Source: Hypoxylon rubiginosum
Lineage: Eukaryota > Ascomycota > Sordariomycetes > Xylariales > Hypoxylaceae
Direction of reading: 5' to 3'
DNA length: 64,000 nt
Assembly: GCA_902806565.1 (NCBI GenBank)
Contig: CADCXA010000029.1
Location: 1,798,001-1,862,000 of the forward strand
Shown: piece by piece, positions 38,278-62,000 of the stretch
Numbering within the stretch: position 1 is the first letter of the stretch
How the letters are laid out: every line of letters starts with the position of its first letter
The notes under the pieces: generated by a model
Databases searched by the model: none
What the model was told of the DNA's origin: nothing
What the model saw: only the letters and a program-made list of their open reading frames with translations
Program-made: the position numbers and the translations under genes

Positions 38278-41200
38278 TTAGGTACCATTGAAACCAGTAT
38301 AAACGAACTCCCCAGGTCCAAAATTGGCCTTTATCGTACATGGCTGAACTGACATGGAAATCACTGGGTATAGCTTGCGGTACACGAGCTCGTGCGAACC
38401 TTTAACTGCATAGATTCATCGTGTCAGCAGAGTTCAATCTTATACAGCTGACCATCTTCGACTTACAGACAAGCTGTCCATTCAGGGTGTAGTAGTAGGA
38501 ACCGTCCGTCCAGTTCAAGCCGCATCCAATCACGTCTCCCTCGGCATACGTGTCGCCGTCACCAAGTGTCATGGTATTCTCCATGATGAATCCATCCCCG
38601 TGGTACCCGATGGTGTCGTTGCTCCATCCCGGCCAGCGGTCTCTGAGATCGTCAAACTCACCGCACAGTCCGATTCCTACCAAGGTGCCCATGCCGGCTA
38701 TCCTGTTGCCTTTCCTGTCGAAGTTGTCCGGGTTATCACTCTCCAATATCTTTATCTCGAAATACGGTACACCCGTATCTCGAGGCGGTAAAGGGTGATC
38801 TGCTCGGACGCTTATTGGACTGCGCTCATGCTCTATAAAGCCGTCAGTTAGGCCCCACCTGCTGCTTATCGAGCGGCTTGAAGGAACGGGTAGTGGTTGC
38901 TCTTACCTTTGTACTTGACCTCGAGGTCGTTTACTATTTCCAGTTCCGACACCCGGCTACGCTGGAGCCATGATCGCGGCGACTCGATGCGGGTTGGGCA
39001 GCGGGTTTTCTTCTCCGGTGGCTTAGACGCGCCATCGATCCACGGCAGCGTGTTTCCCATTTGGTATAGGAAATGGTTCAGCGTCCACTGGTCGTTGTCC
39101 TCGCGCCGTGAAGCCGATCTGCGGAGCGGCGCCAGCTTCTCCCATCCGTCTTGGGAGCCTACCTCGAGGACGGCTCGCAGCGCCCCAAACCCGTCCTCTA
39201 GCACGGAAAGATTGGTACCTAGCTTGTCGAGACACGAATTGAATAGTTCGGTCCTGAACTCGCCGGGAGTATGCATAGGGATCATCTCAAATGCGGATGG
39301 GTAGCCGCTGGCTTTACGCAGGAATGGGTTAATTCCAGAGGCGAGAAGGTCCTTCGCCCAGAGGCACTGGCCGTCCAGAAGGGCAGCCGCCAACAGGGTA
39401 TGCCCTTCCGGTGACCGGGAATTAATGACATTGTGGTCCTTCTCTCGTTTGAGGAGTTCAGTTACATTCTGCAAGTACCCCTTTTCGTAAGCCTTCCAAA
39501 TAGCTGTTATTCGATCATTTGCATCCCACGGTTCCTCTCCTGCCTGAAATCGTAGCTCTAACAGTGCCTCTAGCATGCTCTGGCCAATATCTCTTATTGC
39601 TGCGATCTGGAGACAGCTACCGCCTGTCTCGCACCGGTCCGTGGCGCGGGCTCCGGCCTGTAGCAGCAGGGTCATAGCGTCGCTGGTCCCTTCAGCGAGG
39701 GCGCAGTGCAGTGCCGTGTAGCCGTCGTGGTCGCGGATGTGGATGTCGGGCTTGTATCGGAGAAGCACGCTAATATTTTCGGAGCCGTCGGGGTTTCCGG
39801 AGGCCCGGTGCAGAGGCGTCCTGCCCGAAATATCTACGATGTTGATAACGGTAGCATCTGCCTCGAGTAGCTTTGTGAGTATTTCGCTGTTGGCCCGGCG
39901 GGCTGCCTCGAGCAGAGCTGTGCCACCACCTTCATTCTGGGCCTCGAATATCACCTCGCCGTGCTGGATCAGCATTTCCAGGATATCCGTACACTGCTGT
40001 TCTACAGCTATATGTAATACAGTAGAGCCGTCTGGCCGACGCAGGCTCACGTCCGCCCGGGCGTTTAGAAGGACTTGCACCGATTCGCTCTCCCCCCAGT
40101 ACGTAGCGCGCATTACGGGAGTCCACTGTTGGTGGTCGAGATCGTTGACGTTGGAGCCGCTATCGAGCAGACACTTGGTCACGTCGGGGTTGTCGGCGCC
40201 CGCGTGTAGTGGCGTCCACCCAGATTTGTTGGCAATATTGACGTTGGCCTGGTGCTCTACTAGTACCTTCACGATATCGAGGTAGCCCGAGTACGCGGCC
40301 CGAAACAAGGGTGTTCTTCCATTAACGTCTTGTTTATTGACAAGGTTGGGTTTCTCGTTATTATCCTCGGCCTTGGTCATGACGTTGAGTAGTACCTTGA
40401 CAATCTCTAGCTCCCCTGAGTCGGCTGCCACGTGTAGCGGTATGGAACCATCCTTGTCTGTCCGGCTCCAATCAGCACTCTTATCCAGTAGCATGGATGC
40501 GACGCATAGCTTGGACACGACGCTACCGTTTTCGGTCCGTTTCTTGGCTGCGCAATGTAGAGGTGTCTGCCCGCTGTCAGTTGGCCGGTTCACTTCAACA
40601 TCGTGTTTGAGTAGGACGCCAACGACGTCTTCGTATCCTTTCCACGCGGCCGTATGTAATGCTGTGCTACCTAGTGGGTCGGCCACATGTACGATATCCG
40701 GGTCCCTGCCTATCAAGAAATTTATGGCTTTAACGTTCCGAGTCTTAGCTGCTAGTATAAAGGGCGGGTTGATCGTAAAGACGTCGTCGTCGACTTTCTG
40801 CTCCACCCCCCATATCTTCTCAACCGCTGTAATAGATCCAGACTGAATGGCAACATGGAAGGGTGTAGCGTCGTTGTCGTCCATAATGTCCAACCTTGCC
40901 CGACTAAGCAGCACGTCAACGGTGTCGTCGAAGCCGTTGCGAATTGCGAGATGCAAGGGCGTAGCACCACTCTCGTCTTGCGGGTCTACTTCAACACCGC
41001 GATGGAGGAGAAAGTCCACCATTTTAGGGTATTTCACCGCCAAGTGGAGGGCGGTGCGCCTGTCCCGAGTGCGTGAGTTGATAAATGCCCCTTTTATTAG
41101 TAGCATCTTAGTAATGCGTACATATCCCTTTTCCGCAGCCTTATGTAATGGTGTCCATCGGCCCGGGCCAAGGCAGTTGGGGTCTGCGCCGTTGTCGAGG

Positions 41201-44200
41201 AGGTACTCCACTACTAGCTCGTGGCCGGCGCCCGCCGCATTATATAGTGCTTTCTGATCAGCAACAGAGGCGGCCTTGGGGCCAATCGTGGAACATAGCT
41301 CAACGATAGCTGCGTGCCCAGAGGAAGCCGCTGCGACCAGGCCGTCATCGAGCGCTGTCTGGACGGATAAATCATCCGAGCGCGACAGCAGGAGCTTTAC
41401 GATGTCCAGATGACCGCTCTCCGCTGCTATTTGGAGTGGTGTTTTACCCTCTTCAAGCGAAGTGTTGACCTCCGCGCTCTGCTTGCCCAAAGTATCAATG
41501 AGCTTCTCAGCGACGTCTAGATATCCAAGCCCGCAGGCCATGTGGAGGGCTGATTGGGATTTGACATTGATTATACTCGGATCAGCACCATGGTCGAGCA
41601 AAATAGCCACCATTTCCACCCCGTTGTAGACGGCGTAATGAAGAGCAGTCGACCGGTCGTTGTCGGCGAGGTCGAGATCTGCGTGGCTGTCGACTAGTGT
41701 GCGGACGACATGGACGAGGCCGGTCCGAGCAGCAAGCACCAGCGGGGTGCGCCCGTCTCGGTCCCTGGCATTGATGTTGACGCCACCCTTGCGTAACAGC
41801 AGCCTGATGATACTGCTCTCACCGCCGATGACGGCTTGGTGCAGCGGCGTGCGGCCTTGCTCGTCAGTGGCTGACACAGATGAGTACTCCAGAAGCGCTT
41901 GAACGGCGTTATAACACCCCCATTTGGCGGCCGTGTTGAGTGCCATGGTGATAGCACTAAGGTTAGTGCTAGACTCGACGATGGGCCTTATGAGCGTCTC
42001 TATCACTTTAGAATTATCGCTATGCGCCGCGGCCACTAGCGCATCGACACCACTAGCACCCGCGTTAAGAAACAAGTCGATTAAATCGTCGTGGCCTTCA
42101 CGAATGGCGCTCGGGAGGAGGCTATCCGGACTCGGTAGATCGTGATGAAACGTATGCCCATCCTGCATGCTAGCAGCGATAATGCGAGGGAAGTTCAGCT
42201 CGCTGGCAATGTGTTGGGCTGTGAGATTTCCCGGCGTCGGACCGATCTGCGGAGAAATGCTCAGACGGTAGAGTTCGTACCATCTAGTAACCAGCCCTAC
42301 GTTCTGTAGCATTGCCGTGACAGTGGAATCGAGGGCAGCGTTGGCGTTAGCTAGTCGGTAGTGTACCGGCCATTGTGTCGTCGCATACCCCAGAAAGTTC
42401 AGGATCGACGAGTTGCTCGGCCACATCTCGTACTTCCATGCAACTTGAGCACGGCAGTTAGACCATGATATTTCCAGCTTCTCTAGATTAGAGAGGAGCT
42501 GCGTCAGGTACTCGATACAGAGGGTAGCTAACTCTGCATGAGACAGCAGCTTGAAAGTCCTCTGTTCTTGCTGCTGATGTTGCGAAGCAGCCGTATTTAC
42601 ATCTGAGACCTTGAAGGACTTCCTCACCGAAGAGTTCACCGGAAATACGACCTGGTTCTCCAGCCGAAGTATCATGCTTAAGTGGCGCCTGATGTCGTCT
42701 GTGACTGACACCGAGATATTCGATTGCATCTTCTCAATGTTAAAGCCGCGCTCCTTCACGGCAACTGCCGCAGCGAACTCTTCAGCCCGAAGTGGTCGCC
42801 GGGCCTGTAGGGCCCATGATAACGCCAGCCGGCACCATTCCAGTGTCTGGGGCTCCTTCTTTTCTAGGTCGTCGATGATCCGCTTGTAGATCTCGTCTTC
42901 GGCCTTCGGCCACTCCCTTAGACCTATATCGAGCGCTTCCGCGGTGGATAGCGAGAAATTTTGCGATAGCTGCGTGATGTATAGATTCGCGGTAGCAAAA
43001 GAGCCGCGAAATGGTATGAGGTTCTCAAGGATCGTATCCTTGAAGGCAGCCACGTTCCCTTGGCCCTGCGTGTGCGCCAGACCGTCTAGTTTAGCCTCTA
43101 TGAACTTGTTTCGAGACACGTCTGCTACAGCTCCCAAATCTATGATGGTCCTCGGTGGTGCATAGTCGGCCAACACATCTGGAAACTCGTTTTGATCAGA
43201 GTCTTTCCCCCTACCGGTGCTGATATACACGTAGTCCCCGCCGATGGACGAAAGATAGGATAGCAGTCTCTGGTACAATCCAGTCATCTCTGTGGATATG
43301 TCATTGATGTTACTGGTTAGCATGACGACTTTCCAACCCCTGATATGCCGGAAGAGCTCCGAAACAAACGTCCATAGGGTGTGCATGCTCCACCTTTGCT
43401 CCTGGGCGTGATCAACGTAGAAGTTTCTCATACGTTGAAAGATGAACGGTATTTGGGAGAGCAATTGGTGTGCGATAGACAAGAGGACAGACTGGGTAGG
43501 GTGTATAGACATTAGGGATGATTCCGTCAACGCCTCTAGGACTAGTGCTTTCTTGAACCGTCGCTTGATTCTCTGCGCAAGGAGCTTCATAAGGGTTAGC
43601 TTTCCATGTCCTGGGGGTCCAATGATGTGAATTGCTATCGGCTTTTGGAATGCATCGATGCTGAGGTTTTCGATCTGGTCTTGGTATATCTCCAAGTCCG
43701 CAGCTCCCGCCACCAAGTGTACTGAGTTAGCCTCGTGGATGAGCCATCTAGAAGGCGCTACCAGTTGCAGGCAGTCGAGAAAGTCAGCCCGCAGAGAAGC
43801 GGAGCTCAAGTCCTCGCTAGACCAAGATTCTATACCAATAAGTGATTAGAGGGGATACCAGTCAGTGGCTTACAAAGACTCGGGAGACATGGAGCTAAGA
43901 TACCGAGGTTGAGGAGTCTTGGAGGTGCTAGACTATCTCGAAGCAGCTTTCGCACATCTCTATCTTCGGGAGAAAGATTCACCGCGACATCGTCACCCAT
44001 GAGAGCAAAAGTATTCTCATTTAGGACTTCCCCTGCTAGGGAATCTCTATTCTGGGAATTGGGTCAGCATCAGCGAGAAATGCCATCAGACACTACCAGG
44101 TCTCCGGCAAGCGCTGGGGTGGGATCATTACCAGTTTGTTGACCAATTCCGAACCGGCTTGGTCAAAGAAATTGATAATATGGTATCGCGATGCTATACC

Positions 44201-45045
44201 GTAGAACTCTGAGGCTGTAGACTCAACAAGCACTGCCAAAGCTGAGACAAAGCGTGTCTTCCAGCCTCTTAACTCGATCCCGTTCATCGAAATCATCTTG
44301 CCCAAAAGGGTCTCCCAGACGTTGAGCGTAGGTACCGTATGAGGCGTTGAAATGAAGACCTGGACTTTATGTGAGAAGGGTTTCCTAACGCATCAAGATC
44401 AACTCGAGCTCCCTAATAGGCTTACAATGTCTGACGTTATCACAGCAACGTCATAATATCGAGGGTTGGAGTTTGCTAAAACTAGTGCCTGCCACGATAT
44501 CTGAGTTTACCATACTAATCACCCCTAGAGGAATTACACTCGAGGGCCAGCTTCTCACCTGCTTGATAATAATCCCACCGAGGCCATAACCAACGAGCAG
44601 AACGGTTGTCCACTTTGAGGGGTGGTTAGAAACTAGAAATGATCTAAATAGTATAGAGTAGTTCATATGCTTTACCTTATTCTTGGTTGCCGTATTTCTC
44701 CTTATAGCCTTTAAGAGAATAGATGCCTCCTTGGAGAAGTCATTATCGGAAAGAACATTCTTGTCGGCCGCCGCTCTAGCCTGGAAGAGAGAAAATTCGA
44801 AGACGCGCGCCTCTGGAACAAGCGCAGGGAGTGATCGAAGGAAGGACTGGTGTTCTGCATCTTCCATATCCCCATCATCAGGTCGGGTGTTGTCATGGCG
44901 AGATATTCCGACTAGATAGATACTATTCAAGGATCACCAGGCTGATTTTAGGAAGAGACGACCGCGAATCAAACACTTACTCATATTTACTGGCTGCGCT
45001 CTGGACACTCAGCAGACTAAGACTTTCCGAAGTCTTGAATGGCAT
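38278..45045 (-). CDS. NLR-like protein: hydrolase-like domain, P-loop NTPase, ankyrin repeats, SPRY
   Basis: Predicted 2,073 aa, nine exons (minus): 45045-44981, 44922-44676, 44612-44559, 44488-44426, 44359-44132, 44051-43904, 43829-38907, 38832-38467, 38405-38278; all phases agree. Residues about 23-260 form an alpha/beta-hydrolase-like domain (YLVGISRHDN, LLVGYGLGGIIIKQ, VFISTPHT), but the GxSxG serine is Gly (GYGLGG). The P-loop is GPPGHGKLT (about 339-347). Walker B, normally a DxLDE-type motif in fungal STAND proteins, reads VVMLTSNINDIS. From about 840 to 1775 there are about 25 ankyrin repeats (TPLHLAA-type, 30-37 residues each). The C-terminal SPRY domain (about 1910-2073) runs from VPYFEIKILE through GYHGDGF to the last exon (HELVYRKLYPVISM, then NFGPGEFVY). 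Cytosolic sensor by analogy with fungal NLRs; ligand unknown. The 63-bp intron 44613-44675 is in frame and may be retained. No stop or frameshift found. Confidence 0.88.
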
Positions 45046-45502
45046 ATTGCGCGAATTGTATGGAGCTAGACTGCCGACATCAATGTGATGATGGCACGGA
45101 TGAGAAACCCTATGTATTATCTGAGTGAACTGCTACCAGCTACCCCATGACAAGAGGATCGCGCCCCTTCCCTAAAACAACGCATAACCAAGCGGTGTAC
45201 AGCCTACATGTGGGCGCAATGCAGATACCTAGAGCAGCGGCTTGATTGGAGGGAGTAAGACCATGTTTCGGGCCAAGGCTGAGAGACGCGATGTATAATA
45301 CTCCTCACATTGTACTGGGTACATCTGCTATATTAGTACTCCCACACCTTGTTGCAACCTCTCAGCTTCGTTCAAACGTCAATCACTGCCCCCTGCAGTC
45401 GATGGATTTCAATATTCTTTTATATTGGCACACTCTTCCTGACTCGTCATACCACCACCTGCACCACCTATCCCTCATTGCTAATATCTGATATCGGCCC
45501 TT
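45046..45502. other. Intergenic region
   Basis: About 460 bp between the NLR-like gene start and the stop codon of the next minus-strand gene. It must hold the NLR-like gene's promoter. Nothing else recognised. Confidence 0.4.
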
Positions 45503-46450
45503 CTACTGTGGCTGTTGTATTTCGGGTAACTCGGAAGTTGATTGTGCGAGATCGTCGTCCCTGACTGCGTCAATCCTAGTAACGGACACGGCGTCACCTA
45601 GCTGGCGCAGGTTGACAGACCGGAGATTGCTCAGGTCAATTTGTTGATCAGCCATGAGGGCACCCTTTGGTTCTGGGAATTGTACGCCACGCTTGAAGAT
45701 GACGGGGTCGTTCCGGCGATCCCCAACCAGTTGGTGAACGATCCAGGCGGCTCTATAGTGGACGTCAGCCAGAGCGTTGATGGAGAAGTAACCGCGGAAG
45801 CGGTCAGTATCCTCGTGTAGCCGCAGCAGGATTGCAGCACGCAATTCACGCACGACACCTGACCTTTGGCTTGCATTCTCGTATAGGCTGAGAGCCACCG
45901 CATTACGCTTGCCGTATTCGCGCCCGCGTCGCACCCTTGCCCCTGTCACCACCGCCCAGTTCGCCCGGTTTGTTGTCGTTTTCACCTCCCATCTACCTGT
46001 GAGCGTTGCAGAAGCCACTGAAGCACCCGCCGATGCGCCTTGTTCAACCGAGTGTGTGTCCTCCACCGTCGCCGACGTCTCCTCATAACTATATTCGCGG
46101 TCTGGCCAGATCGCCACTACCTCTGGGGCGTGCAGCAGTGGTTCCTCCTCGTCTTCGAAATAGATGGTCACTTGAACCTCACGAAACCGCCGCCTTTGGT
46201 TAATGCCCTGGAAGCGGAACCCGATCACAATTAGCGTAGCCGCCTCGCCATCCGGGCTTTCTTGGCCGTGGAGAACCTTGAGCAGATCGGCTTGGATCAG
46301 TAAACCCGCAGTCGTGTCATCGGTGATATTCTCCCGCTGGATCTCATCACCCTGATTCAGCGTGTGAAAGCGCGCTTCGGTTCCTAGCGGGGCGTCTGTG
46401 AGTTCAATCGAGATTCCCTCTTGGAGCGTATGTTGCTGATCTTCTTCCAT
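45503..46450 (-). CDS. Intronless 315-aa protein of unknown function
   Basis: Single open frame starting MEEDQQHTLQEG, no introns, unusual beside its intron-rich neighbours. I do not recognise a domain. By eye, residues 70-115 and 150-230 alternate hydrophobic and polar residues (LIVIGFRFQG, EVQVTIYFED, RWEVKTTTNR, NAVALSLYEN), suggesting a beta-rich fold. Between them, residues 121-152 form a Ser/Thr/Glu stretch passing into a Gly/Ala/Ser patch (EQGASAGASVASATLTG), which could be a flexible loop or hairpin. The C-terminal 55 residues are acidic and probably disordered. There is no signal peptide or clear membrane helix and no cysteine. It lies between the NLR-like gene and a divergent protease gene (599 bp from that start codon), so a partner or substrate role is possible but is inference. 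Confidence 0.75.
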   Translation of the reverse strand: MEEDQQHTLQEGISIELTDAPLGTEARFHTLNQGDEIQRENITDDTTAGLLIQADLLKVLHGQESPDGEAATLIVIGFRFQGINQRRRFREVQVTIYFEDEEEPLLHAPEVVAIWPDREYSYEETSATVEDTHSVEQGASAGASVASATLTGRWEVKTTTNRANWAVVTGARVRRGREYGKRNAVALSLYENASQRSGVVRELRAAILLRLHEDTDRFRGYFSINALADVHYRAAWIVHQLVGDRRNDPVIFKRGVQFPEPKGALMADQQIDLSNLRSVNLRQLGDAVSVTRIDAVRDDDLAQSTSELPEIQQPQ

Positions 46451-47048
46451 GGTACTCGTTCGAGATTCTAATCAGTCGTCATACAATAGCAATAGTAATG
46501 GCAATGGCAATGACAATGGCAATGAAGACGAGTCCCTAACAAGACCCCTAATTCAAGTGACTTATATACCCATGCTAGCAGCGAACCTATTTCCGAGTTC
46601 GCTTGGCGTAGGTAGGTACACCATAAGCGTCAACGAGAGTTCAGGTTTTGGCCCCCATCCCCCTTTCTTTCCCAACCGTGTACAGGTGAGACATTCGGTG
46701 TGCAACGAGATGATGTACTGAGTACTTATGGTTCAGCCAAGGCGTTCTCCGCCCCATTCCTAATGCTGCAGTAGGAGATATCCAGACTTAGTCTTTTTCT
46801 CAAGTAAAAATATGGCCATCGAATGCTGCACGCATACCGTCTCATACAATAATACCTATCTCCCGAACCCGCTCATGGTTTCCATCGAATGCTGTTAAGA
46901 CAAGGCTATTACGAACAGGCAATAAAAATTGAAAATATTTCTCCATGATCCTGGCTTTGAGTAGGACTGAATAATAGCATCTCTGTTACACGCGCTTCTG
47001 TTCCTCATTTCGCTATACCGTTAGTGCGGTTCTACTACTACTCTTACA
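46451..47048. promoter_or_regulatory. Bidirectional promoter region of the 315-aa protein and the protease
   Basis: About 600 bp between two divergent starts. Near its left edge lies an imperfect AATGGC hexamer repeat (46495-46528). No coding signal. A shared promoter would allow coordinated expression; this is inferred from layout. Confidence 0.4.
46495..46528. repeat. Imperfect AATGGC hexanucleotide repeat
   Basis: About five copies of AATGGC/AATGAC just upstream of the 315-aa protein start. Simple repeat, likely in its 5' leader. Confidence 0.6.
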
Positions 47049-50000
47049 ATGCCACTAGCAGATGGAGATGAAAAGAAGGACTCTGGCAGCGCTCGGCAGA
47101 CAAAGCTGCTCGAGATTACAACAAAATGGCACACTCAACTGAAGGATTCGACACAAGAAAACTACGGCGATATTATTGGAAATTTCCGGGAAGCGATCCG
47201 CGACGAACTAACGGGTCAACAGAGGAGTCGATCAGTGTCAGAGGATGATATCATTAACGTACTCGACCAAAACAAGGATATGTACAGCACACTCTTCCAG
47301 GACCAAAAACATTCATCGTCCAGTATTTTTCACGAGATCCTAAAACGCCTGAAAATTTCAACTAATGGGGACGACGAAAACAAGTGGGCTGCTGCACGTC
47401 TGTTCCTCCAACACCTTGTCATCAGCTATCCACGTGTGCTCACACATCGAGATGATGGTGACCTCAACCCTTTAGAACAAGCAGCTAAGAAGAATAAACC
47501 TATCGTACTTCTTATCACCGACCTCGTGGTTCCCGACGAGATCTTGTCGCTTCTTCGGCGCAAATGCGACAAGGCGACATCAAGACTTGGACCTAGTACC
47601 CCCATGAAACAAGGTACAGCCCGAAACTGCACCATCGAACTAAATAAGGTCCTAGTGAAGCGGTTTCGGAGGACCGGCAAATTCGACCACGCAGCCTGCC
47701 TACACGACCTGATTGATGAGAAGAAGCTCGCTGAGTCGAACGAGAATCTGCGGCAAACCTTGGAGGAAGCACTACTAGGCGAAACGGATAACGATAATAG
47801 GACCACTTGCCTCCATAGCCTCCTTAAGGACGACACTATATTTACTTTGAAAGATGTCGACAAAGCAGTTATAGCTTTCCAACACCTCATCAGGCTATGT
47901 CCCGGGCCGCTCATGAGAGTCTGTGATCAAAACGGGCTAACTCCGCTGCACAATGCGATTCGGCTCTATAGTCAGGACAACTTTGACTTTGAGCTGCTCA
48001 ACAAGATCATCGTCGAGCTATTCATGCGATCGCCGGAGTCCCTGTACGACACTGTCCAGGGAAACCAGAAGAATAAGGACTACAACAAATCGCCCTATGC
48101 GCTGCTCAAAGAAATGAAGCTGCCGCTACCCGGACCTAATACAAAGAGTAACAAACCTCAATGTTATACTGACATTGAGCGGACTCTAAAGTATGCGTGT
48201 ATCGGTGGCAGACTTGCGCGCAATCAGAAGAGAGACTATCTGTATGGCGAGCAGGATAATGGTATGTTGTCTAGAAATCCGCTGAGGCTACAGTCCATTA
48301 GGGCAGTGTGGTTTAGCTCATCTCCATTACTCTTCCCTTTGATCTCCCATTATTTAGCTATAGAGAAGCTAACGCTGTTTTTCTTTTGCCTGTATCAGCT
48401 CCTAGACTATTTCTTGATCTAGAGCACGTGAATGGTGGTGTGAATAAAAAATATCTTGAGATGTTGTCAGAAAAGGTCAACCAAGCCTATGACACGGCCC
48501 TAGAATATGTCAAGCTACCTCGGATTCAGCAAAAGTCGATGGGCCAGCCCGTAACCGGCCCAGATAGCCGGGGCCCAGTGAGCAAGGTTATTGGTACAAT
48601 AGGGAGTGAAGCTCCTGAAGAGTCGAACCCATACTCCCAGGTGTTTGCCTGGCTTAAAATGAAGGAAAAAGTCGAAAAGATATTCAACGTCATTGTTGAC
48701 GACCTCGGGGACAGATCTCACAGCGACGATGCCATTGTGAAAGCGTTACAACCCTTCGACATCGAAGTATGGGATTGGATGAAATTTGACATGTGCAGCA
48801 GCACCATCCAGAAAGCAGCACCGAATGTGCGCCGCGTTTTTCTCCACGCAAGTGGTAACAACGCGATTCTTCGGAGCTGGTCCTGTAACACAGGATTTAT
48901 TCAGTTCAAACAGGTGACGGGATATTTCTCCTTTCCCCTCTTGTTTCTTTCCTCCTATGTCGTTCTCATGCAACCCCACGTATTCTACAGCCCACTATCT
49001 AACTCTCTTGGTCACTATTTAGCTTGAAGAGATCACGATTACTATGTATCCAGGCGTAAGTACAAGCATCCTCCATCTTTACTTTGATATATCGTTAACA
49101 TATCACACCGGAAGAAACGCGAATCAAAGGAAACACTCCAGCTCTATCTTGAAGATTTCAGGATAGCTTTCTCCAGCCATAGACTCGGCTCCCAGCCAAA
49201 GATAACGATTCGAGGCCTCGACAATTTGTCCATGTCTAGACCTCCGTTAGAGAGAACGATGAAATCATCCAGCACAGACCAGCAATCCGAGTATGCTCTG
49301 CAGGGTCCCTTTGCTGGTCTATTTATTAAATCTCCTTAGAGAGTAATCACTCAAATAGTTTACTAACCTATTGCGTGTTAGGGATGCATGGATCAGAAAT
49401 CTCACACCATTCCGCAAAGCGCTAGACAACTGGTTTAGTGGTCGTCACCATGATCAAGGGGAACCCGACAGTAAGAAGGATGATAATGGGGACGACGGGC
49501 CACTGGTCAAGATTGCGCTGATTGACAGCGGCGTAAATATCCGCCATCAGGAGGTCGGCAACATAGAAGCGACAGAGTCGTTCTATAACCTGTCCTCTTC
49601 AAATGGCTTTCGTGACGTCTTCGCAGACCCTTCTACTCACGGCACACAGATGGCTACCTGCATCCTCAAGGTCTGCCCCAGGGCTAAACTCTATGTCGCT
49701 CGACTGGATGACTCCAAGGAACAATTCACGATTGAATCTACTCTCCAGGTAAGAACAAAGCTGGCCTTTGGTGGTAGATCTGGAAAGCATTGGAGAGTGG
49801 ACTGGCAATGACTGACATAGAAAACCTAGGCACTGGAATGGGCTACAAAGAAAGGGGTGGACATCATCTCCATGAGCTGGACATTCAACCAGACCAAACT
49901 CGGTGAACAGGAAAGGACAGAGTTCAAAGCGGCTATCAATAAGGCATCGAGCGAGAATATTCTCCTATTCGCTTCACTCAATGACGCAGAACCGAACTCA

Positions 50001-50486
50001 GACATTAGCAGTTTTTACCCCGTCGGCCTCGACCACGTCTTCAAGATCGGCTCGGCTAAGAAATGGGGCGCGAGCGCTGACTTCGGGCAGGAGAACAAGT
50101 CTGACTACCTGTTCCCAGGCCAGGACATAACGCTAGAAGACCCCGACGGCGAAACATTGCATCCGTCCGGCAGCTCCCTGGCTACGGCGTTTGCCGCCGG
50201 CATGGCCGGACTAATCCTCTACTCGATGAAGCTCCACCTGATGACCCCCGATACTGAGGAGACGGAAGAAGTCAGGACGAAACGGTTAGAGGATGCCAAG
50301 ACCAGGGCGGGCATGGTCAGGATATTCAACGTCCTAGGGGGCAAGATGTCCGAAACCGTACCCAAGGATATCCCGGTGGCTTTCTCGAAGAACTTATTCC
50401 CCCAAGCTATGAGCGCTCTGATGGAGGAAAAGACGAGAACTCTCCGAGAATTTATACAGCGAATCGCACCTACATATATCGGCTAA
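47049..50486 (+). CDS. Subtilisin-like serine protease (S8) with ankyrin-like N-terminal region
   Basis: Predicted 986 aa, six exons: 47049-48261, 48399-48913, 49023-49055 (33 nt), 49115-49290, 49382-49748, 49830-50486; phases agree. The C-terminal third is an S8 domain with a complete triad: Asp694 in IALIDSGVNI, His732 in STHGTQMAT, Ser884 in HPSGSSLATAFAAG, plus an oxyanion-type Asn near 819 in FASLNDAE. The N-terminal 640 residues are helical and include degenerate ankyrin-like segments (LNPLEQAAKK, NGLTPLHNAIR). There is no signal peptide, so it should act inside the cell, unlike secreted subtilisins. Family knowledge: intracellular fungal subtilisins of this kind occur in NLR-like proteins and next to cell-death effectors such as HET-Q1. 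It is divergent from the 315-aa gene and close to the NLR-like gene. The 49291-49381 intron uses GTATGC and a TACTAACC branch; a naive frame would stop at TAG near 49338. Confidence 0.88.
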
Positions 50487-50921: not shown

Positions 50922-52130
50922 TCACGGGGCCGAAAGGTGCGCCAACATCTCATCTAGTTGGTTATGGCGCTTCGCAGCGTGATCGAATGTAGGATACTTT
51001 GTCGAGTCCCCGGCAGCAAATGCCTCGTAAAGCGCTCCGACCATTCTCGCAGACACATCAAGCTCCTCTCTCCCTTGCCAGTTCCACCCAACAGTCTGCA
51101 CTTCATCCGTATCAAAGTCGTGCATTTCAATAACAATCGGTTGTCCGTGCGCCGTTGCAGAGATACTCATTCCCCCCGTAGCTGTTAGGCGGATCTCACC
51201 CTTTTCTCCGTTCACTGACCACACCAGCGGGTCCTCTCCTTTAAAAGCCTGCCCCCGGCGGCATCTGAAATGAAGAGTGGCGCCCGGAGTAACATATTCC
51301 GAGGCCTGTAGTGAACCGGTTACGAGCACCAGGTCGGGAACATCCGATCGAATTGTTTCTACAATCTTCCCAGTCGATGGGTCCCGGACTTTCACGTCTG
51401 GTCGCTGAATTTGCAGGTGCGAGTTCAGGACCTCGATCTCTCCAAGGGCGGACTGAACGAAATCAAATACTGAAATATGCGATCAGCAAGTCTTTCGGAT
51501 TCCCTTATAGGCCAGGACAAACTTACGGTGACCAAATCCAATCGTGAACGTGTTTCCCCCAACCTTCCTGTCGGTGAAGTACTTCAGGGGAATCGGCATG
51601 ATAGTCCTATCGTTCGTGCCGCCCGCCCCGCGAACCTCGCTACTCAGCACCTTTCCAATGCGTCCGCTCCTCACCAGGTCCCGAACCGTCATCACGGCCG
51701 GCGCATACCAGCCCTGAAGTCCCACCATGGTCCTCCCCCCTTTTTCGCGCGCAAAAGCCGCTAGCTCACCTGCGAGCGCCGCGTTCTGAGCTAGGGGCCA
51801 CTCCACGTACGCGGACTTTCCCTGGCGCACGCTCGGCAGAATGGTCTCGTAATGCTTGTCCACGCGCGTCGCGCACACGACGAGCTGCACATCCGGGTCC
51901 GCGGCCAGAGCCTGCGGGTCGCCGTACGCGCGTGTCTCTGGCAGCAACTGAAAGGACTCGATGGCGCGCCTGGCGGCGTCTACGCTAGAGTTGCACAGAG
52001 CTATGATCTGGAACTTGGCCTTGCCCTCGGGACTGAGCAGGTAGGGGAGGTGGGCATGGCCAGCCCAGTTGCTGGGAGAGGAACTCGAGAGCCCTATGAT
52101 GGCGGTTCGGATTGGAGACATGTCTAGCAT
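50922..52130 (-). CDS. Gfo/Idh/MocA-family oxidoreductase (Gal80-like)
   Basis: Predicted 383 aa from the ATG at 52130, or 380 aa from a second ATG at 52121 that gives MSPIRTAIIGLS. Exons (minus) 52130-51527 and 51469-50922, joined to read GFGH-LFDFVQSALGEIEVLN. The N-terminal Rossmann fold shows AIIGLSSSSP with VQLVVCATRVDKHYETILP and the YVEWPLAQN motif (the E-K-P element of the family replaced by E-W-P). The C-terminal alpha/beta domain has GGNTFTIGFGH and WSVNGEKGEIRLT. Family members oxidise sugars or sugar-like substrates with NAD(P); the E-W-P element and fold are also those of yeast Gal80, a non-catalytic regulator, so catalysis is not assured. Substrate unknown. Intact; high GC in exon 1. 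Confidence 0.88.
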
Positions 52131-53278
52131 CGGTTCTTGAGTTTCTTGAGTTACGGAATAAGAAGCCCGATATTGAATAAAAGCAGGTGGTCAATAAGTA
52201 GCAGTAAGCCGGGGAGTAGTCTTCGACGGCAAACTTGGCCGGTACTATAATTAATAAGCAAGGAGTGCTTATAAATTTATACTTCACGTCTCACTAACAG
52301 CCAATAAAAAATCAGCGATGTCTTAACTGGGCTGCATCATGCGTAAGGATAAAACGGCCGGCATCTTGCTCAGAAATAAGCTAGATGTTCAATGTTACCT
52401 ACCTCCTACCTAGTAACTTATAAAGACGTGCTAGGTACTGTATATTATGACATTATCAGGTTGAACAAGTGGCATAGGAACAAGAAGGCTACGAAACTTG
52501 GCTATCAGTAAGAGCTATAAATCCTACATGGTCCTTCTGAAGAGCCCTTACTATCTGCGGTGGACTTATTGATGTTTAGTAAGGCCCATAACTTGCGTAG
52601 TGAGGATGCGGTGAAAGAAGTCTAGTATTGGACGATAGTTGACTTATAGAAGAAGAGGATAGAAATACCCCTATTTATATAGGTAGGTATACACCAGCTT
52701 CTTAGTCTTACTAAAAGTGTTAGTGATAGAAGCTTGAATATCCGCAAGCTGGACTTGATCGAGTATTGATCTGTGATATATGAGAGGTAGTTGGTTCAAC
52801 CCTGTGTAAGCCAGCATGTTAATATAGGATGTTAAAAATGAGTAATTCAAGAGGAAAGAACGGGCAATGAAAGATATAAAATAGCGGGGCAGCTGCGGGG
52901 TTACATGCAGGCTGCGGGAAGCTGGGAGCTCCCCTGTTGATATATGGGTCCGGCTTATGCAGGTGTAACTTCAGATCGGATTTTGGGCAACTATTATGTA
53001 AGCATGCTTGCTTATAAAGCACAGAGGAGCTCAGATAGGGGCAGCGGCGCTTTTCTTTCGTACTTTGGGAACAAACAGTGGCTGTAATATCACCAAGCTG
53101 GTGTGCTATTCTCTAGTGCTCTAGTTAGTTAGGTAGATGTATTTCGTTCGACTAGCTTTTATGTGTGCTTATCAACCCCATTCGATATCTCACCAAGCAT
53201 TTCATCTCAATCTGCTGGAATTTGTGAAAACATTCTGCATACCCCTTACGTACCCCAACCACGTATCTTTTCGGAAAT
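52131..53278. other. Intergenic region
   Basis: About 1.15 kb, moderately A+T-rich, no supported coding sequence. GGTTCAACC at 52794-52802 resembles a tRNA B-box, but no matching cloverleaf was seen. No diagnostic repeat. Confidence 0.4.
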
Positions 53279-55098
53279 TCAATAAGGGATAATAGGAACG
53301 TAGAAGCGGAAGCGGTTGTGCGGATCATATTTGATCTTCAGTCCTCGTAGCCTCTCTAAGCGCCAGGGCTCGTACCCGTATATAGACTCGAGAGACTCGT
53401 ACGTGTTCCCTGTCGCGTAATTTACATACGTCGCCGGCTTACGTGTAGGCTGCCCGGCGTTCCATATGTCCCAACTCTCTTTGGCCCACGTCTTCGCCGG
53501 CTCCAGCAGGTCTGATCCCTTGGGGATTTCGGTCAAGAAGAATCTTCAACGGTGTCTCTGTCAGCACAATTGAACTCTTCTAGAAGTACATACGCCTTTG
53601 GGAATGGGAACGGATACGCACGCTAAATGGTGTTCATCGCGGTGGGGATACGCAGTAGAGGCAGGATTAATAGCCTGCACCCCTGCGGTCGCATAGCCTT
53701 CGTGATAGAGACGAGCGGTTACCCCGAGCTCAGGGTATAAAGCTGCTTTTCGGTTAAAAAGGTCGTATAGCTGGCGTTGTGCCGTAATATTATAGGCCTG
53801 GAGCGAAACGGTAGACATGGCGTATGAGCCGGAAGTAATAGACGAGGAAGCACTATCCTGAGGAACGACGAGTTCAGGATAGGGGACATCGCCCATCTCT
53901 TCAGATATAGCCTCAATCGCGTTAAACGGGCGCAGAACTTCCTCGGCTGCGGATGCAGGACCTGCATAGGCGAAGGTCCACCAAAGAATGGCCTATGTGA
54001 AATCAGGAATCAAGAGTTGTGTTTATGGGTAAGAGGGGGCAGATAAAAACTACGCACCTCGTTTTCGCAGAGAGATCGATTCATAGATATTCGACCGTAA
54101 TTTTCGCCCAATAAATGGGTCGCATTGCTATGATGCTGAATCTTGTTCAACTCCTCAAATACCGTCTCAAGCTTATCTTGGGTCCAGGAGTAGTTATGAT
54201 AATGCCACGTCGCTGTCTGGCTTGGGTAAATCTTGAGTCTCAAGCTAGTAACAATACCGAAATTATGGCCAGCGCCCTTCATCGCCCAGAATAGGTCTTC
54301 ATGGCTCGTCTCATTCACAGAAATTGTTGAGCCATCAGCCAGGACGACGTTTAAGTGGATGATATTATCGCTAACCAAGCCGTAAAGGCCATCGTAGCGT
54401 CCGTGACCGCCACCAAGAGCAGGCCCCGTCAGGCCAACGCCCTCGCTAGCCGCAGTAGCTAATGAATAGCTCTGTTAAGAACGTGCCTCTCGAATATTCT
54501 TTCGGATCACGGTGCAAAAGACACTCACCCGCAACGTAACCCTGATCCCAAAGTTTCGCCATTATTTCACGGACATATGCTCCACCTTGGAATAAAGCAG
54601 ATTTCCCATCCGGGTCGATGGTGATAGCTGTGAGCTGTTTCATGTCAATCTGAACACCGCGAAATCTACCCAGGGACGTGGTGAGGCCATGACCACGGTT
54701 TACTGCTAAAAATTGGATGCTGTTATCATTGCAATACTGGACCTAAATCCGCTGTCAGGCAAGTGATAAGATAATTCAGGGGTTACGGCAGCGCTGACAA
54801 TCTTTGAGATGTCGGACTCCTCCGCCGGCTGTACCGCAATCTTGATGTCAGGGGGTGCCAAAGTATTCCATCTCTCCGTGACCTCAGACCACGACGGATC
54901 TGAAGGCAAGAATATGGCTGAGTTGGAAGATACAATTGTACCTAGGTCCCGTGCGATTTCAGAGACTAGCACCTGTCGACGCGTGAAGGGGTTATTCTGA
55001 AAATAACGGGGCACAGAGCTGGAAGGCAAGAGTAATTTTGCTACAGATGCCTGGAAAAGCGTGAGAACGAAGAGCGTATGCCGAGAAAATACGCCCAT
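53279..55098 (-). CDS. Secreted FAD-linked oxidase, BBE-like (PCMH domain)
   Basis: Predicted 516 aa, five exons (minus): 55098-54799, 54742-54529, 54458-54058, 53992-53622, 53543-53279; all phases agree. The start at 55098 gives MGVFSRHTLFVLTLFQASVAKL, a signal peptide; an ATG 27 codons upstream would add a poor leader. The FAD-binding PCMH domain shows [29 protein letters not shown], the FQGGAYVREIM strand, GVGLTGPALGGGHGRYDGLYGL and GAGHNFGIVTSL. The BBE C-terminus is present: YVNYATGNTYESLESIYG and LRGLKIKYDPHNRFRF. Family members oxidise alcohols, carbohydrates or secondary-metabolite intermediates with covalent FAD; the usual His of the RGxGH motif is within NRGHG. Substrate unknown. 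This is the last gene before the A+T block, 240 bp from its edge, yet it shows no stop codons. Confidence 0.9.
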
Positions 55099-55304
55099 GC
55101 TTGCTATAGTATCGATATGACCGCACAGGGTGAACGGAATCAGCAATGAGTTCCCACCCGTAATGCAAGAGGATAACAAACCTTTATAACAGCCTGTAAC
55201 CTACTCCCTAGTTATATAAGTGCTGCTCCTTCTCTTCATTTTCTTTCTTGCGAAACACAGTTTCTTTCTTGAGCTTTGACAGTTAATTAACTTATATATT
55301 ACTA

Positions 55305-55327
55305 GCTGCGCAACCTGGTTGTGTAAA
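55305..55327. repeat. Imperfect palindrome at the edge of the A+T block
   Basis: GCTGCGCAACC, one base, then GGTTGTGTAAA. The second arm differs from a perfect inverted copy at four of eleven positions, three of them C-to-T or G-to-A type. Possible transposon terminal repeat altered by RIP. Confidence 0.45.
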
Positions 55328-55339
55328 TATAGCTAGGAG

Positions 55340-58300
55340 GGAAGTTATAGGTTTTTTTTTAGATTATATAAGTATTTTATTATTATTTTATATTAATTTT
55401 ATGTAATTTAAATTAATTGGAATTTATTTATAAAAATATAAAATAAAAATTATAAAACTAATATTTAATTATTAAGTTTATTATTTTTTATTAGAATTTT
55501 TTATTAATTTATATTATTTTTTTTTAATTAATATATTTATATTAATTATCTTATTTATATTTTATATTTTATACTTATATTTATATTTATTTTTTTTAAA
55601 CTTTTATTTAAATTTTACTATTTTTTTCCCTAGAAATCTTTTAATTAATAACTGTTATTTTTTTTAACTATTAAAATATTATCGTGTTTATATTTATTAA
55701 AGTTTTATTTATTGTTAATTTAAATGTTACCGTTATTATTAATAAAATTATTAAATAATAAAATTAAATTAATATTTAATTTAAATATAATATCGCTAAA
55801 TATAAATTTAAACTATTTAATTTTAATATAAGTTAAAATTAATATTAATTTTATATGTTTTATTTTTAGCTTTTTATTAGTTTTAAACTTTTTTTTATAA
55901 TTATTATTACTAGTTATTAACTTTAGTTTATTTTATTTTTATATAATAAAAGCTTTTTTATAAAATTAATAATAAGTAATAAGGTTATTATTATTAGATT
56001 TTAAATTTAAATTTAAAAAGTTTTTTTTTAAAGTTAAGGAATAATATTTATAATTATTTCTTAATTATTAATTTTTTAATTTTAAGCCTTTTAATTTTAA
56101 GTTTTTTAATTATTAATTTTTATTTTATTTTTTCCTTTTTTTTTAATTATTTGTTTTTAATATTCTTATTTATAGTTTATATATTTTAATTAAGGTTTTT
56201 AATAACTTTTATTTATAATGTTTATTTTTTTAAAGTTTTATTAATAGTAAATTAAATTTTTAATTTTTTGTTACTTTTTTATTTTTAAATAATAAAACTA
56301 TTTTATTATATATTAAACTTTAAATAAAATATATAAATGTATATTAAAAAAATACTTTTAAAATAAAATAATATTTAATATTATAATAAAAATTTAAATA
56401 TAATAAATTTTTATTGATAAAAAGTTTTAATAGGTTTAATATATAAATTTATAATATATATAATTTATTTAATTTATTATTTTTATTTTTTTTTTTTTTT
56501 AATATTATAATTATATAGTTATAATTAAATAAATAATAAATATTATTTTAAATTATTATTTAATTTTTATTATTATTAAAAGGGTTATTTATATTTAAAA
56601 ATAAAGTTATAAAATTTTATATATAATAATTATTAAATTAAGTTAAATATGTTTTTAATATAATATAAACTATTTTAATTTTAATTAACGCTTCTATAAA
56701 ATAATAAATCTTAGTTAAAAAATTATAACTATTTATTGGTTTTTTTAAGTTTATTATAATTTTAATAATTAAGATTTATAAAAATATTTTTTTATTATTT
56801 AAAGTTGGTTTATTTAAAGTTAATTTATTTAAAATTAACTTATTTACAGTTAATTTATTATATTTATATTTTAAGTTTACTGTTTTTTTTTATAATAAAA
56901 ATAAAATAATAAGTATTATTTACTAATTAAAGTTTAAATAAAAAATATAATTATTTATTAATATTATTTTATTAATAAACTTAAATAATTATTATAATAT
57001 TATAATAAGAAAATATTTAATATTATTTATTAATTAAATTTATTAATAGTTATTAAATAATAAAATTTTATAGTTAAATATAATAAATAGTTTATTCTTA
57101 AAAGTTTTTAAAATATAGAAATTATATTTATTTTTATATATTTATAATATATTAATGTTTTTTCTTACTATTAAATATTAATAGTTACTAATAATAATAA
57201 TATAAATAATATAAATTATTTTATAATTAATATTAAAAATTATATTAAAATAATTTAAAAAGTTAAAATTAAGTAATAACTTTATTTTTAAGTATTTTAA
57301 ATAATATATATTAAGTTTATATTATAATTATATATATAAATTATATAAAAACAGTTTATAAATTAAATAATGTAATTTATTAATATTATTTATTTTTAAA
57401 TATATAAATATAATATATATAAATTTAAATATATATAAATAATAAAAAGTTATATTTATTATAATATAAATAAAATTATAAAGATTTATTTATATAAGTT
57501 ATTTAAACATTTAAATAATAAATTATTTTAAAACTTAAAATATTAATAATTTATTATTTATTTATATATATAAGTAAGTTATATAATATATAGTTAATTT
57601 TTTATTTTTTATTTTAATATTTATTTTTTATTAATATATTTTTTATTAATATAAAATATAAAATAAATTTAAAAGAAAAATTTATAACTATTACGTTTTT
57701 TAATAATAATAACAATATATTTAACTAAATTTAAAAAGTTATTTATATTTTTTATTTTAAATATAATTTATTATATATATTAATTATTTTATATGTTATT
57801 AATAATAATAAACTTTATTATTTATTATTTTATAAAATTTATATAATTATTACTAGGAATATTTAAAATAATATTAAAAATATATAAAAACTATATTTTT
57901 TTTTATTTATTAATTAAATTGTTTTTTATTTACTAGTATTTTAAGATAATTTAATTAATACCGGAACTTATTATTTTTATATTTTTTATAAAAACCATAT
58001 AAATATAAATTATATATTTAAATATTATAATTAGTTTTAAATATTATATATATATATTTATATTAATTATTTTTATTATAATTAATATATTATATTTAAT
58101 AATTTCTTATTAAAAGCACTGGTTTTTTTTTTATAAAAATATATTTAAATAATAAAAAAATATATATATTAATAACTTATTTAACCGTATTAATTTTAAA
58201 TTTAATTTTAATTATAATTATTATATTTTTATATTATAATTAATAAAACTAAAAAATAGTTATATTATACTTAAAATTATAAATTTTTAATTATTAGTTA

Positions 58301-59041
58301 ATTAAATATATATATATCTTATAAAAAATTTATTAAATATTATTTATATTTTTTTTTTAACTATATATTTTTTCGTTAAAACTTTTATTATATTTAGGAT
58401 AAAAATTATATTATTATTTATTTAAAGTTAAATTTTAAATAAAAGAATAAATTTTATTTAATGTTATATATTTTTTAGTTACTAACTAAGTATTATAATA
58501 TAAATATTAAAATATATATGTTATTTTATAATTATTTTTTTTATTTAATTTTTTATATTTTAATTAAATTTTTATTTGTTTGTTTCGTTTAAATTTTATT
58601 TATTAAAAAGGTAATTAAAATATTTAATAATAATATTTTTTATTAAAAATATTTTATTATTTTTTTTAAATATAAAGGTTTTTATAATAAATAATTTATA
58701 TAATAAATAATAATAATAAAATAACTTCTTAATTTTAAAATAAAAATTATTAATATTAAAAAAGTTGGTTAAAAATATAATATTAATAAAGTTTTATAAA
58801 ATGTAAACGAAGTTAAAAAAAAAAATATAAATAAAATTAAAAAAAAAAATATAAGCGAAGTTAAAAAAAAAAGCGATATTAAATATTTAAATAAACGTTT
58901 AGTTTATTTAATATATATTAAATAAATAAAATCTAATAATAATAATAATTTTAAATATCTTTTTTAAAAGTATTATTATAAGAGATTAATATTTTTAACA
59001 CGTATTAAGTAATTTAAATTTACTAGTAATAATAATAATAA

Positions 59042-59088
<47 letters not shown>

Positions 59089-62000
59089 GTTTTAACTTTT
59101 TTTTTTTTAACGATTTAGATAACGATTTTTAGCTTAATTAAAAAAAAAAATTTAAACTTAATTTTTTATATTTAAATATTAAAATTAAACTTATATTATT
59201 TTATTTATTTATTAATTTTAATTTTATTTTAAAATTATTTATATTTATATTTAATTTAGTAGATAGTAATAATTAAAATTTAAGTTATTATAAAAATTAT
59301 TTTATTTTAATTATTTTTTATATAGTTTTTATTAATATTAAATTTTTTATTAATATTAATTTTAAAATTAACTATAAAATTACTTTTAAATATATTTATA
59401 ATAATTATATTTATTAAAAGGTTTAATTTTTTTTAATGTTTTATTTATAAAAAGTTAGGTTTTTTTTAGTATATTATAATTAAAAAAATTAGATTTTTTT
59501 TTATATATTATTTTTTTATATATATAATTTATAATATTTTTTAAATAAATGTTTTTATAAGGATAATATTTTATAAAATACATATATATAAATAAAAAAA
59601 AAAAAATTTAATAGATTGGTTTATTATTTTATATATCGCTTAATAAAAATTTTAAGTTAATATTTTTTTATATTTTTAAAATATAAAATCTTTTTTTATA
59701 TTATAATTTTATAATATAAAACTAAAAGCGCTTAATTAAATAATTCTTACTTATTTAAATTAATACTAATTAATTTTATAGTTATAATTTATTTAAAACT
59801 TTTATTTTTTCTATTATTTTATATATATTTTAAACTGGCTTATTTTTAACATATAATATATATTTAATTATTATATGTTTTTTTAAATTATTATTAAAAT
59901 ATAATTTATATAATATTAATTTTAAATTATTTGGTATTTTTTTTACTTGTTTAATTTAAATAATCATTTAGTTTAAATTTTTAGATTTTATAAATTTTTA
60001 TAATTATTTTTAATTAATATTATTTAAGTTTATATAGTTTATAAGATTTTTTTTTAATTTATAAGAAATGTTTTTTAAAAGATTTTACTAACTTTAAAAA
60101 ACTTTTTAATTTTATTTTAACTTTTTTATATTATAAGAATAATATTTATAATAACTGTTATTACTAAATTAAAAAAACGGTTTTATAGTTTTATAAATTA
60201 AAATAATAATAATTAACACGTTAGTTTTTATTTATTAAGTTTATTATTTTATAATATAAATTATTTTAACTTTTTTAAGTTTAATTAAAAACAGGTATTA
60301 ACTTTAAATTAAAACAGGTTAAATTATTTTCCGGCTTTATTTTATACGTTTAAAATTTTTTATTATATTAACGAAAATAACGATTATTTTATATTAAAAA
60401 ATAACAGAGATTTAATTAAATATATATAATAAATTTTAATTAAAATTAAAAAAATTAAAATAAATAATATTATAGTTTTAATATTTAATAATCTATATAT
60501 ATATTAAGTTTTATTATTTTTTTAAATAAGTATTTTATTAATAATTTAATAACTTATTATTAAATAAACTTTTTCATTAAATATATAATATAAAAATTAA
60601 GTTTATTACTATAAAAAAATTAAATTAAATAAAATACTAATTATTAACTATAAAAATAAATTTATATTAGTTTTTTTTAATTAACTTAAAAGTTTTAATT
60701 ATTATTAGTTATTTATATATAAATATATAACATTGTTTTACCCTTAAAATAAAATTATATTAATTATAAAATAAATAATAATAAATTTTAATATTATATT
60801 ATTTTATTTAACTATTTTAATAATATATATATTAGTTATTATTATAATAATATTAAAAGTAAATACTTTTATTAACTTAATATATAATATATAAATATTA
60901 ATAAACCTAAATAATAATAATTAATTTTTTTAATAACTATTAATAAATATATTAAAATAAATAACATATTAATTAATATTTTTATATTAATTTTAATTTT
61001 TTTTTAATGTAATTTTTTATTATTAATAACTAAAAAAAGTATAAAACCTATAACGAAATAAAGGTTAATTAATATTTATTTATTTAAAATAATTAAAGTG
61101 ATTTATAGTTTATTATTTTAATTATTTAATATAATAAAAAAAATAGAATAATTAAAATATAACAGGATTTTTTATTTTAAAAAATAAAAATAAGTTAAAT
61201 AATTAATTAAAAGTGTTTTATATATATATTAAATATAATATTATTTATAGTATTTTTTTTTAATTATTTGTTAATTTTTATAAAATTTTAAAATATATAA
61301 TATTTAATAATTTATTAGATTTTACTTTTAATATTTTTAAAACTTTTAATTTTTAAATAAATTTAACTTTTAATATAATTATATAAAATTATTTATATAT
61401 AAATATAAAAATCCTTTAATTAATATTAATTATATTAAAAAATTATTCTTATAATTTATTTATAGTTATAATAAAATAAATTAATATTAAAAACTGTTAT
61501 TTAAATTATATAAATAACTAGTTTTTATTATTTTAAATTAACTTAATTTTTAATAAAATATATTTTATTTTATTAAATAACCTACTAAGAATTTTAATTT
61601 TTATATTATATTTATTAAACTAAGTTATAATTATTTAAATACCATTATAAAAGTTTTAATTAAAATCTAAGTTACATAACATTATAATAAAAAAACCAAC
61701 TTTTAATTTTAATTTAACCGGTGGTATTTTTTTTAACTATAAAATTTAAATTATTTTAATCGGTGTTTTTTTAGTTTATTAATCGTTTATTTTAATAAAT
61801 TTATCTATTAAAAAATATTTTTATTTTTTTTTAAAGATATTAAATAATAAGTTATTATTAATCTTTTATATAAATATATTATATATAAATAAAATAAATT
61901 TAAAAGTAAAAACATTTAAATTATATAACGTATTATTTAAGATTTTTTTTAAATAAATATAATTATAAAAGTTTTTAATATTATTAAACGTTTTTATTAT

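Follow-up and report, generated by a model that had tools for sequence, protein, structure and literature searches.

Protease-gated gasdermins are regarded as a theme that animals, fungi and bacteria share in their lytic immune death, and the hemolysin fold is known from secreted bacterial toxins. According to the accessible text of PMC10989679, HET-Q1 is believed to lose 40 residues when the S8 protease HET-Q2 cleaves it after Phe238; that of PMC10197012 gives approximately 80% of fungal gasdermin genes as clustering with a protease gene and approximately 63% with an S8 gene; and two- or three-gene clusters, as well as proteases fused to ankyrins, are described in the accessible part of a review (PMC12881547). 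NLRs that combine ankyrins with SPRY are also known: in the available portion of PMC12258605, SPRY occurs in 46 of 4,613 Sordariales NLRs, always together with ankyrins.

We analysed a stretch of 64,000 nucleotides from Hypoxylon rubiginosum (contig CADCXA010000029.1, positions 1,798,001 to 1,862,000; hereafter the window), which belongs to a 48.3-Mb assembly of 70 contigs, and in which an S8 gene lies beside a small leaderless effector gene, the arrangement typified by HET-Q1/HET-Q2. A preliminary description of this DNA had listed three adjacent genes, with the gene for a 315-aa protein divergent from a protease gene and an NLR-like gene on the same strand as the former, and we confirm this arrangement with identical outer coordinates (Table 1); the starts of the divergent pair are separated by approximately 600 bp. 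On balance, we favour the interpretation that the locus is a protease-gated cell-death cassette with a hemolysin-like pore-former, in which the NLR-like protein probably serves as a sensor, either upstream of the protease or in parallel with it. An ordinary gene for a Gal80/GFO_IDH_MocA-type oxidoreductase (window 50922-52190, minus strand) adjoins the protease gene.

Table 1 Features of the candidate cassette (nucleotide positions are those of the window; residue numbers are those of the protein named)
Feature	Position	Strand	Remarks
NLR-like gene	38278..45045	-	nine hand-placed exons, 2079 aa
C-terminal SPRY domain of NLR-like protein	38278..38858	-	two exons; closest PDB RanBP10/RanBP9
P-loop GPPGHGKLT of NACHT-like domain	43594..43620	-	at residue 339
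GYGLGG	44574..44591	-	at nucleophile-elbow position of hydrolase-like domain
315-aa gene	45503..46450	-	single open frame; predicted pore-former (effector)
315-aa protein, all-beta domain	residues ~42-260
315-aa protein, candidate stem hairpin	residues 119-174		Gly/Ala/Ser/Thr-rich tip
315-aa protein, C-terminal part	residues 261-315		variable linker, then conserved NLRSVNLRQLGDAVS strip, then tail
Divergent intergenic region	46451..47048	.	presumably common promoter of effector and protease genes (inferred role)
S8 subtilisin protease gene	47049..50486	+	six hand-placed exons, 986 aa; weakly ankyrin-like N-terminal half
Protease exons	47049-48261, 48399-48913, 49023-49055, 49115-49290, 49382-49748, 49830-50486	+
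Catalytic Asp694 codon	49524..49526	+
Catalytic His732 codon	49638..49640	+
Oxyanion-hole Asn819 codon	49980..49982	+
Catalytic Ser884 codon	50175..50177	+

The protease is an S8 subtilase, with a domain that carries the Asp-His-Ser triad. Peptidase_S8 (residues 688-919, E 5e-21) is its sole Pfam domain, and Asp694, His732, Asn819 and Ser884 align with the triad and oxyanion asparagine of subtilisin. When it is aligned with 18 relatives, the Asp is found in 19 of 19 sequences, the His and the Ser in 18 of 19 each, and the Asn in 7 of 19. Both the full triad and the lack of a signal peptide had been proposed in the preliminary description; the alignments bear out the first, and the second agrees with hydropathy, by which the N-terminus contains no hydrophobic segment. 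A deposited homologue from Hypoxylon texense is 71% identical to the window protease across its length, and approximately 30 residues of our exon 2 are absent from this homologue and present in that of Annulohypoxylon truncatum. Similarity of the N-terminal half to ankyrins does not rise above the threshold, but recognised ankyrin domains occur in 9 of the 18 listed relatives.

Sequence comparison places the 315-aa protein in a small family. Nine members, the window's included, were found among 7,998 candidates scored from a set of 5.8 billion proteins, and all six whose source is known are fungal; 9 pattern matches from viral contigs were examined, none of which was confirmed as a relative. 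The nearest named relatives of both the 315-aa and the protease proteins are from H. texense and A. truncatum, and Trichoderma atroviride possesses homologues of both genes, in different assemblies. Two of the nine members are fused to DUF6594 (one confirmed by Pfam), and these fused proteins (P0008, P0009) bear C-terminal hydrophobic segments; such fusions occur in the window genome (C6:1226087-1227896), H. texense and H. crocopeplum. By hydropathy, the 315-aa protein has no N-terminal hydrophobic segment and no signal peptide. Over five orthologues, 87% of positions are invariant in an N-terminal strip (26-48), compared with 20% in the linker (261-275), 65% in the C-terminal strip (276-292) and 9% in the free tail. 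No Pfam family was matched by any of 10 family members at E <= 10 (HMMER filters on), Leukocidin included, nor were NCBIfam matches obtained for three members or PADLOC matches for two, and the family profile matched no sequence in the PDB. For the C49 member, Shikimate_dh_N scores below the cut-off (E 0.047), which we attribute to chance.

The predicted fold of the 315-aa protein is alpha-hemolysin-like. We call it hemolysin-like only, because no family member matched the leukocidins by sequence. Models were obtained for the window protein (mean pLDDT 53.8; 91 of 315 residues at or above 70) and for a second member approximately 25% identical to it (mean pLDDT 55.5; 139 of 561 residues at or above 70), two models that are not independent because both were built from the same nine sequences. 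Chains of the hemolysin family head the Foldseek lists of both, with TM-scores of 0.14-0.34, and in the second model the family reaches E 3.4e-4 versus 4.9e-3 for unrelated folds; several VIA rows of this model have an rmsd of 6-10 Å. The evidence for a hemolysin body fold with a hairpin occupying the stem position comes from these predicted models (mean pLDDT 54-56), of which the putative stem is the least confident part. In each of 11 members compared, glycine, alanine, serine and threonine together make up 50-75% of the 20 residues preceding the conserved Trp position, a proportion read without a control stretch. Neither model contains a helix of 4 or more residues within the domain, and gasdermin chains are absent from the listed fold matches of both, an absence that does not amount to exclusion. 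The earlier opinion that the protein does not look like a known gasdermin is supported as far as it was tested, the predicted fold being hemolysin-like.

A first alternative is that the family consists of very divergent fungal gasdermins, such that the locus would simply be a cluster of the het-Q1/het-Q2 kind to which an NLR has been added. The size of the protein, its lack of a signal peptide, its adjacency to an S8 gene and its short C-terminal tail all match fungal gasdermins as described in the accessible parts of PMC12881547, PMC10197012 and PMC10989679. However, none of the 10 members has a Pfam match and the family profile has no PDB sequence match, although the solved fungal gasdermins reported in the accessible text of PMC12881547 are presumably within the 2026 copy of the PDB, and both models lack domain helices of 4 or more residues and retrieve hemolysin-family chains instead. 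Pfam Gasdermin yields 0 matches in the window genome, with a model that may not detect fungal gasdermins. We consider this alternative quite improbable. A second possibility is that the 315-aa protein forms no pore and is instead a beta-sandwich binding protein, which might serve the protease as guarded substrate, inhibitor or adaptor. Such sandwiches are a widespread fold, and models of low confidence may give false matches; moreover, the C-terminal hydrophobic segments of the DUF6594-fused branch could already provide a membrane anchor. Against this stand the position of the hemolysin family at the top of both lists, its lead over unrelated folds in the second model, and the predicted hairpin at the stem position, and we regard this possibility as unlikely.

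The pairing of 315-aa and protease genes is more than accidental. Seven family loci are known in the window genome (the window, C62, C49, C6, C16, C31 and C29:1259164-1260148, hereafter C29:1260k), a lower bound because the searches score only the best candidates. Five of these (C62, C49, C6, C16, C31) were found genome-wide with the 315-aa query, and again with other members as queries. The C29:1260k copy is more divergent: it was detected in two pieces (E 8e-7 and 1e-4) by local search beside protease paralogues and was missed by genome-wide searches with three other members. Used as a query, it returned itself and one weak match (E 0.3) and recovered none of the other six, so that its membership rests on profile scores and alignment. 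This copy is likewise transcribed divergently from its protease gene. Altogether, six of the seven known copies, including the window's and the one found by looking beside protease paralogues, lie within 10 kb of S8 sequence, at distances from open frame to open frame of 0.6 kb (window), 0.6 kb (C29:1260k), 0.5 kb (C49), 0.4 kb (C31), 7.0 kb (C16) and 9.6 kb (C62). At C31 a remnant of the family gene lies beside a protease remnant, and triad motifs can be read by eye in the C16, C62, C49 and C29:1260764-1264561 proteases. The seventh copy, C6, is a DUF6594 fusion, and no S8 sequence was found in the 40 kb examined around it. The middle stretch of the C16 copy (L018:8492-9418) is unaligned in its open frame, as if shifted.

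Among the five paralogues found genome-wide with the 315-aa query, four have S8 sequence 0.4-9.6 kb away. Judged against an independent list of S8 loci (a Pfam search of the genome giving 36 rows, merged to 27 loci), two of the five are paired (chance ~0.002), rising to three when the C49 S8 sequence, which was also found genome-wide, is added (~4e-5), and to four with the C31 fragment as well (~4e-7); these figures assume uniform placement, and they describe retained pairing rather than independent events because a single ancestral cassette may have given rise to the copies. Pairing is not strictly one-to-one, since no family copy was found in the 20 kb fetched around each of two further protease paralogues (C44:47235-48937 and C29:879768-880559). 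Two weak family matches on C55 (917318-917506, E 0.015; 984165-984386, E 0.3) are either divergent copies or chance; if real, they adjoin no known S8 locus of the Pfam list and would lower the proportion of six in seven.

Linkage extends to other species. In H. texense, the protease Hte_005965 and effector Hte_005966 have consecutive locus tags and are both listed with a longest contig of 5,109,626 bases, and in A. truncatum the effector F4807DRAFT_433752 and protease F4807DRAFT_433754 have near-consecutive tags and are both listed with 587,353 bases; linkage is here read from locus tags and contig listings, and JGI-style numbers may depart from gene order. The conserved linkage that the preliminary description had suggested looking for is therefore found in two other species, by locus tags, and among divergent paralogues of the same genome. 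As evidence against its proposal it had also named either a housekeeping fold or homologues that in most genomes are remote from protease and NLR genes; this describes one of the seven copies, the DUF6594 fusion, and not the other six.

A third explanation for the linkage is genomic co-residence, under which fast-evolving protease, NLR and HET genes gather beside AT-rich islands with no joint function. Indeed, the cassette of the window lies next to an island of 4-12% GC, as do the C62, C49 and C29:1260k copies, and about 93 NPHP3_N loci are present in the genome. Yet the C16 and C31 copies are paired with S8 sequence in the absence of an AT-rich island in the stretches fetched, and pairing persists at approximately 18-34% effector identity and in other species, which co-residence alone does not predict. 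We judge co-residence to be very unlikely. AT-rich islands also adjoin the C44 and C29:880k protease paralogues, C44 being cut by one, and the island in the window occupies 54000-64000 (34% GC at 54-56 kb, 6-9% from 56 kb on). A 330-bp element common to two of the loci adjoins, at C49:38865-39194, the point where the protease frames of C49 begin, and has a 92% identical counterpart just upstream of the C62 effector; it proved to be a dispersed repeat with at least 40 matches listed in the genome.

The third gene encodes a protein that fits the definition of a fungal NLR, combining a NACHT-type domain and P-loop with repeats, in the order alpha/beta-hydrolase-like N-terminus, NACHT/NPHP3_N, ankyrin repeats and SPRY; its N-terminal exons were placed by hand, without a homologue in support. 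With the long open frame as query, NPHP3_N scores just above its cut-off of 24.8 bits (25.3 bits, E 2e-5), and with a shorter piece ending inside the domain it scores 22.2 bits, below the cut-off. Ankyrin repeats (E 1.5e-135) and a C-terminal SPRY domain (E 1e-11) are also recognised, the latter being nearest to RanBP10 (E 4e-16) among solved structures in the PDB. The N-terminus has a PGAP1-like Pfam match below the cut-off (E 9e-4), and GYGLGG stands at what we take to be the hydrolase elbow, where GHSLGG is usual; because this motif has no serine at the elbow, the domain is probably catalytically dead, a pseudo-enzyme.

While the effector-protease pair is well supported, the NLR as a third gene is less so. 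NPHP3_N lies within 13 kb of four of the seven copies (window, C49, C31 and C29:1260k). For the five paralogues whose discovery did not depend on proteases, the figure is two (chance ~0.026, with about 93 such loci in the genome), statistically a weaker association than that with the protease. At C16, a large ankyrin protein is encoded between the effector and protease genes; the part preceding the ankyrins shows weak similarity to the NLR of the window (E 8e-5), but no NACHT domain was recognised in this protein by Pfam. An open frame with winged-helix and HET domains (C29:1256736-1259099) lies beside the C29:1260k effector/protease pair.

How might such a cassette function? Cleavage, pore, death, trigger and the part played by the NLR are what we infer. 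The 315-aa protein would be a soluble cytosolic pore-former, with a beta-sandwich body and a stem hairpin able to fold out, and the C-terminal tail beyond the variable linker may hold it inactive. Under this scheme, the N-terminal half of the subtilisin would sense a trigger and the protease would cut its neighbour, which could then oligomerise in the membrane and kill the hyphal compartment; the NLR-like protein, with its ankyrins and SPRY, would act upstream of the protease or as a separate, parallel sensor. A natural reading is that the tail keeps the body in check for as long as the linker is intact, although the protease might instead cut within the conserved N-terminal strip (26-48) or ahead of it. 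Phe258, a candidate cleavage site by analogy with Phe238 of HET-Q1, is retained as a hint only, because the next residue in the window protein is proline.

The type of circuit proposed here is already known, whereas a hemolysin-like effector was not found in the literature searched. That search covered openly available journal papers; among its best-ranked matches none described a fungal cell-death effector resembling a hemolysin or leukocidin, and DUF6594 returned 0 papers in the same body of literature. A broader proposition, to which we assign somewhat less than an even chance, is that fungi possess a second, non-gasdermin class of protease-gated executioner, an internal protein of alpha-hemolysin fold whose gene would share its cassette with that of a subtilisin and often with an NLR gene; these cassettes would work in the manner of an animal inflammasome pathway, though assembled from different parts, and in a side branch the pore domain would be DUF6594-anchored. 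If hemolysin-like proteins do fill the gasdermin slot in fungi, then the conserved element is the circuit of sensor, protease and pore, and not the pore-former itself, and a fold of secreted bacterial toxins would gain an internal, self-directed use. A search rule also follows: another orphan gene that adjoins the gene of an intracellular subtilisin may encode a further type of executioner. The rule has worked once here, in that the C29:1260k copy was found beside a protease paralogue.

Comparison with described systems places the locus closest in layout to HET-Q1/HET-Q2 and the clusters of Q2L-proteases with gasdermins, with which it shares an S8 protease that is intracellular and, next to it, a small putative pore-former that has no leader and ends in a short C-terminal tail; it differs in its effector, for which no similarity to gasdermins was detected and a hemolysin-like fold is predicted, and in the NLR-like gene that is a frequent third neighbour of the 315-aa cassettes. 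Like the alpha-hemolysin/leukocidin pore-formers, the 315-aa protein has a predicted body fold of that kind with a hairpin at the stem position, yet there is no sequence match, and whereas those toxins are secreted with a signal peptide, this putative pore-former is fungal, lacks a signal peptide and is encoded beside a protease. The window NLR resembles fungal ankyrin-SPRY NLRs in its NACHT domain, ankyrins and C-terminal SPRY, but adjoins a pair of protease and candidate pore-former, and its N-terminal hydrolase-like domain is without the usual serine. Finally, the animal NLR-caspase-gasdermin pathway likewise divides receptor, protease and pore-former among separate proteins, although here the protease is unrelated, the pore-former is unrelated by prediction, and the relay between them is putative.
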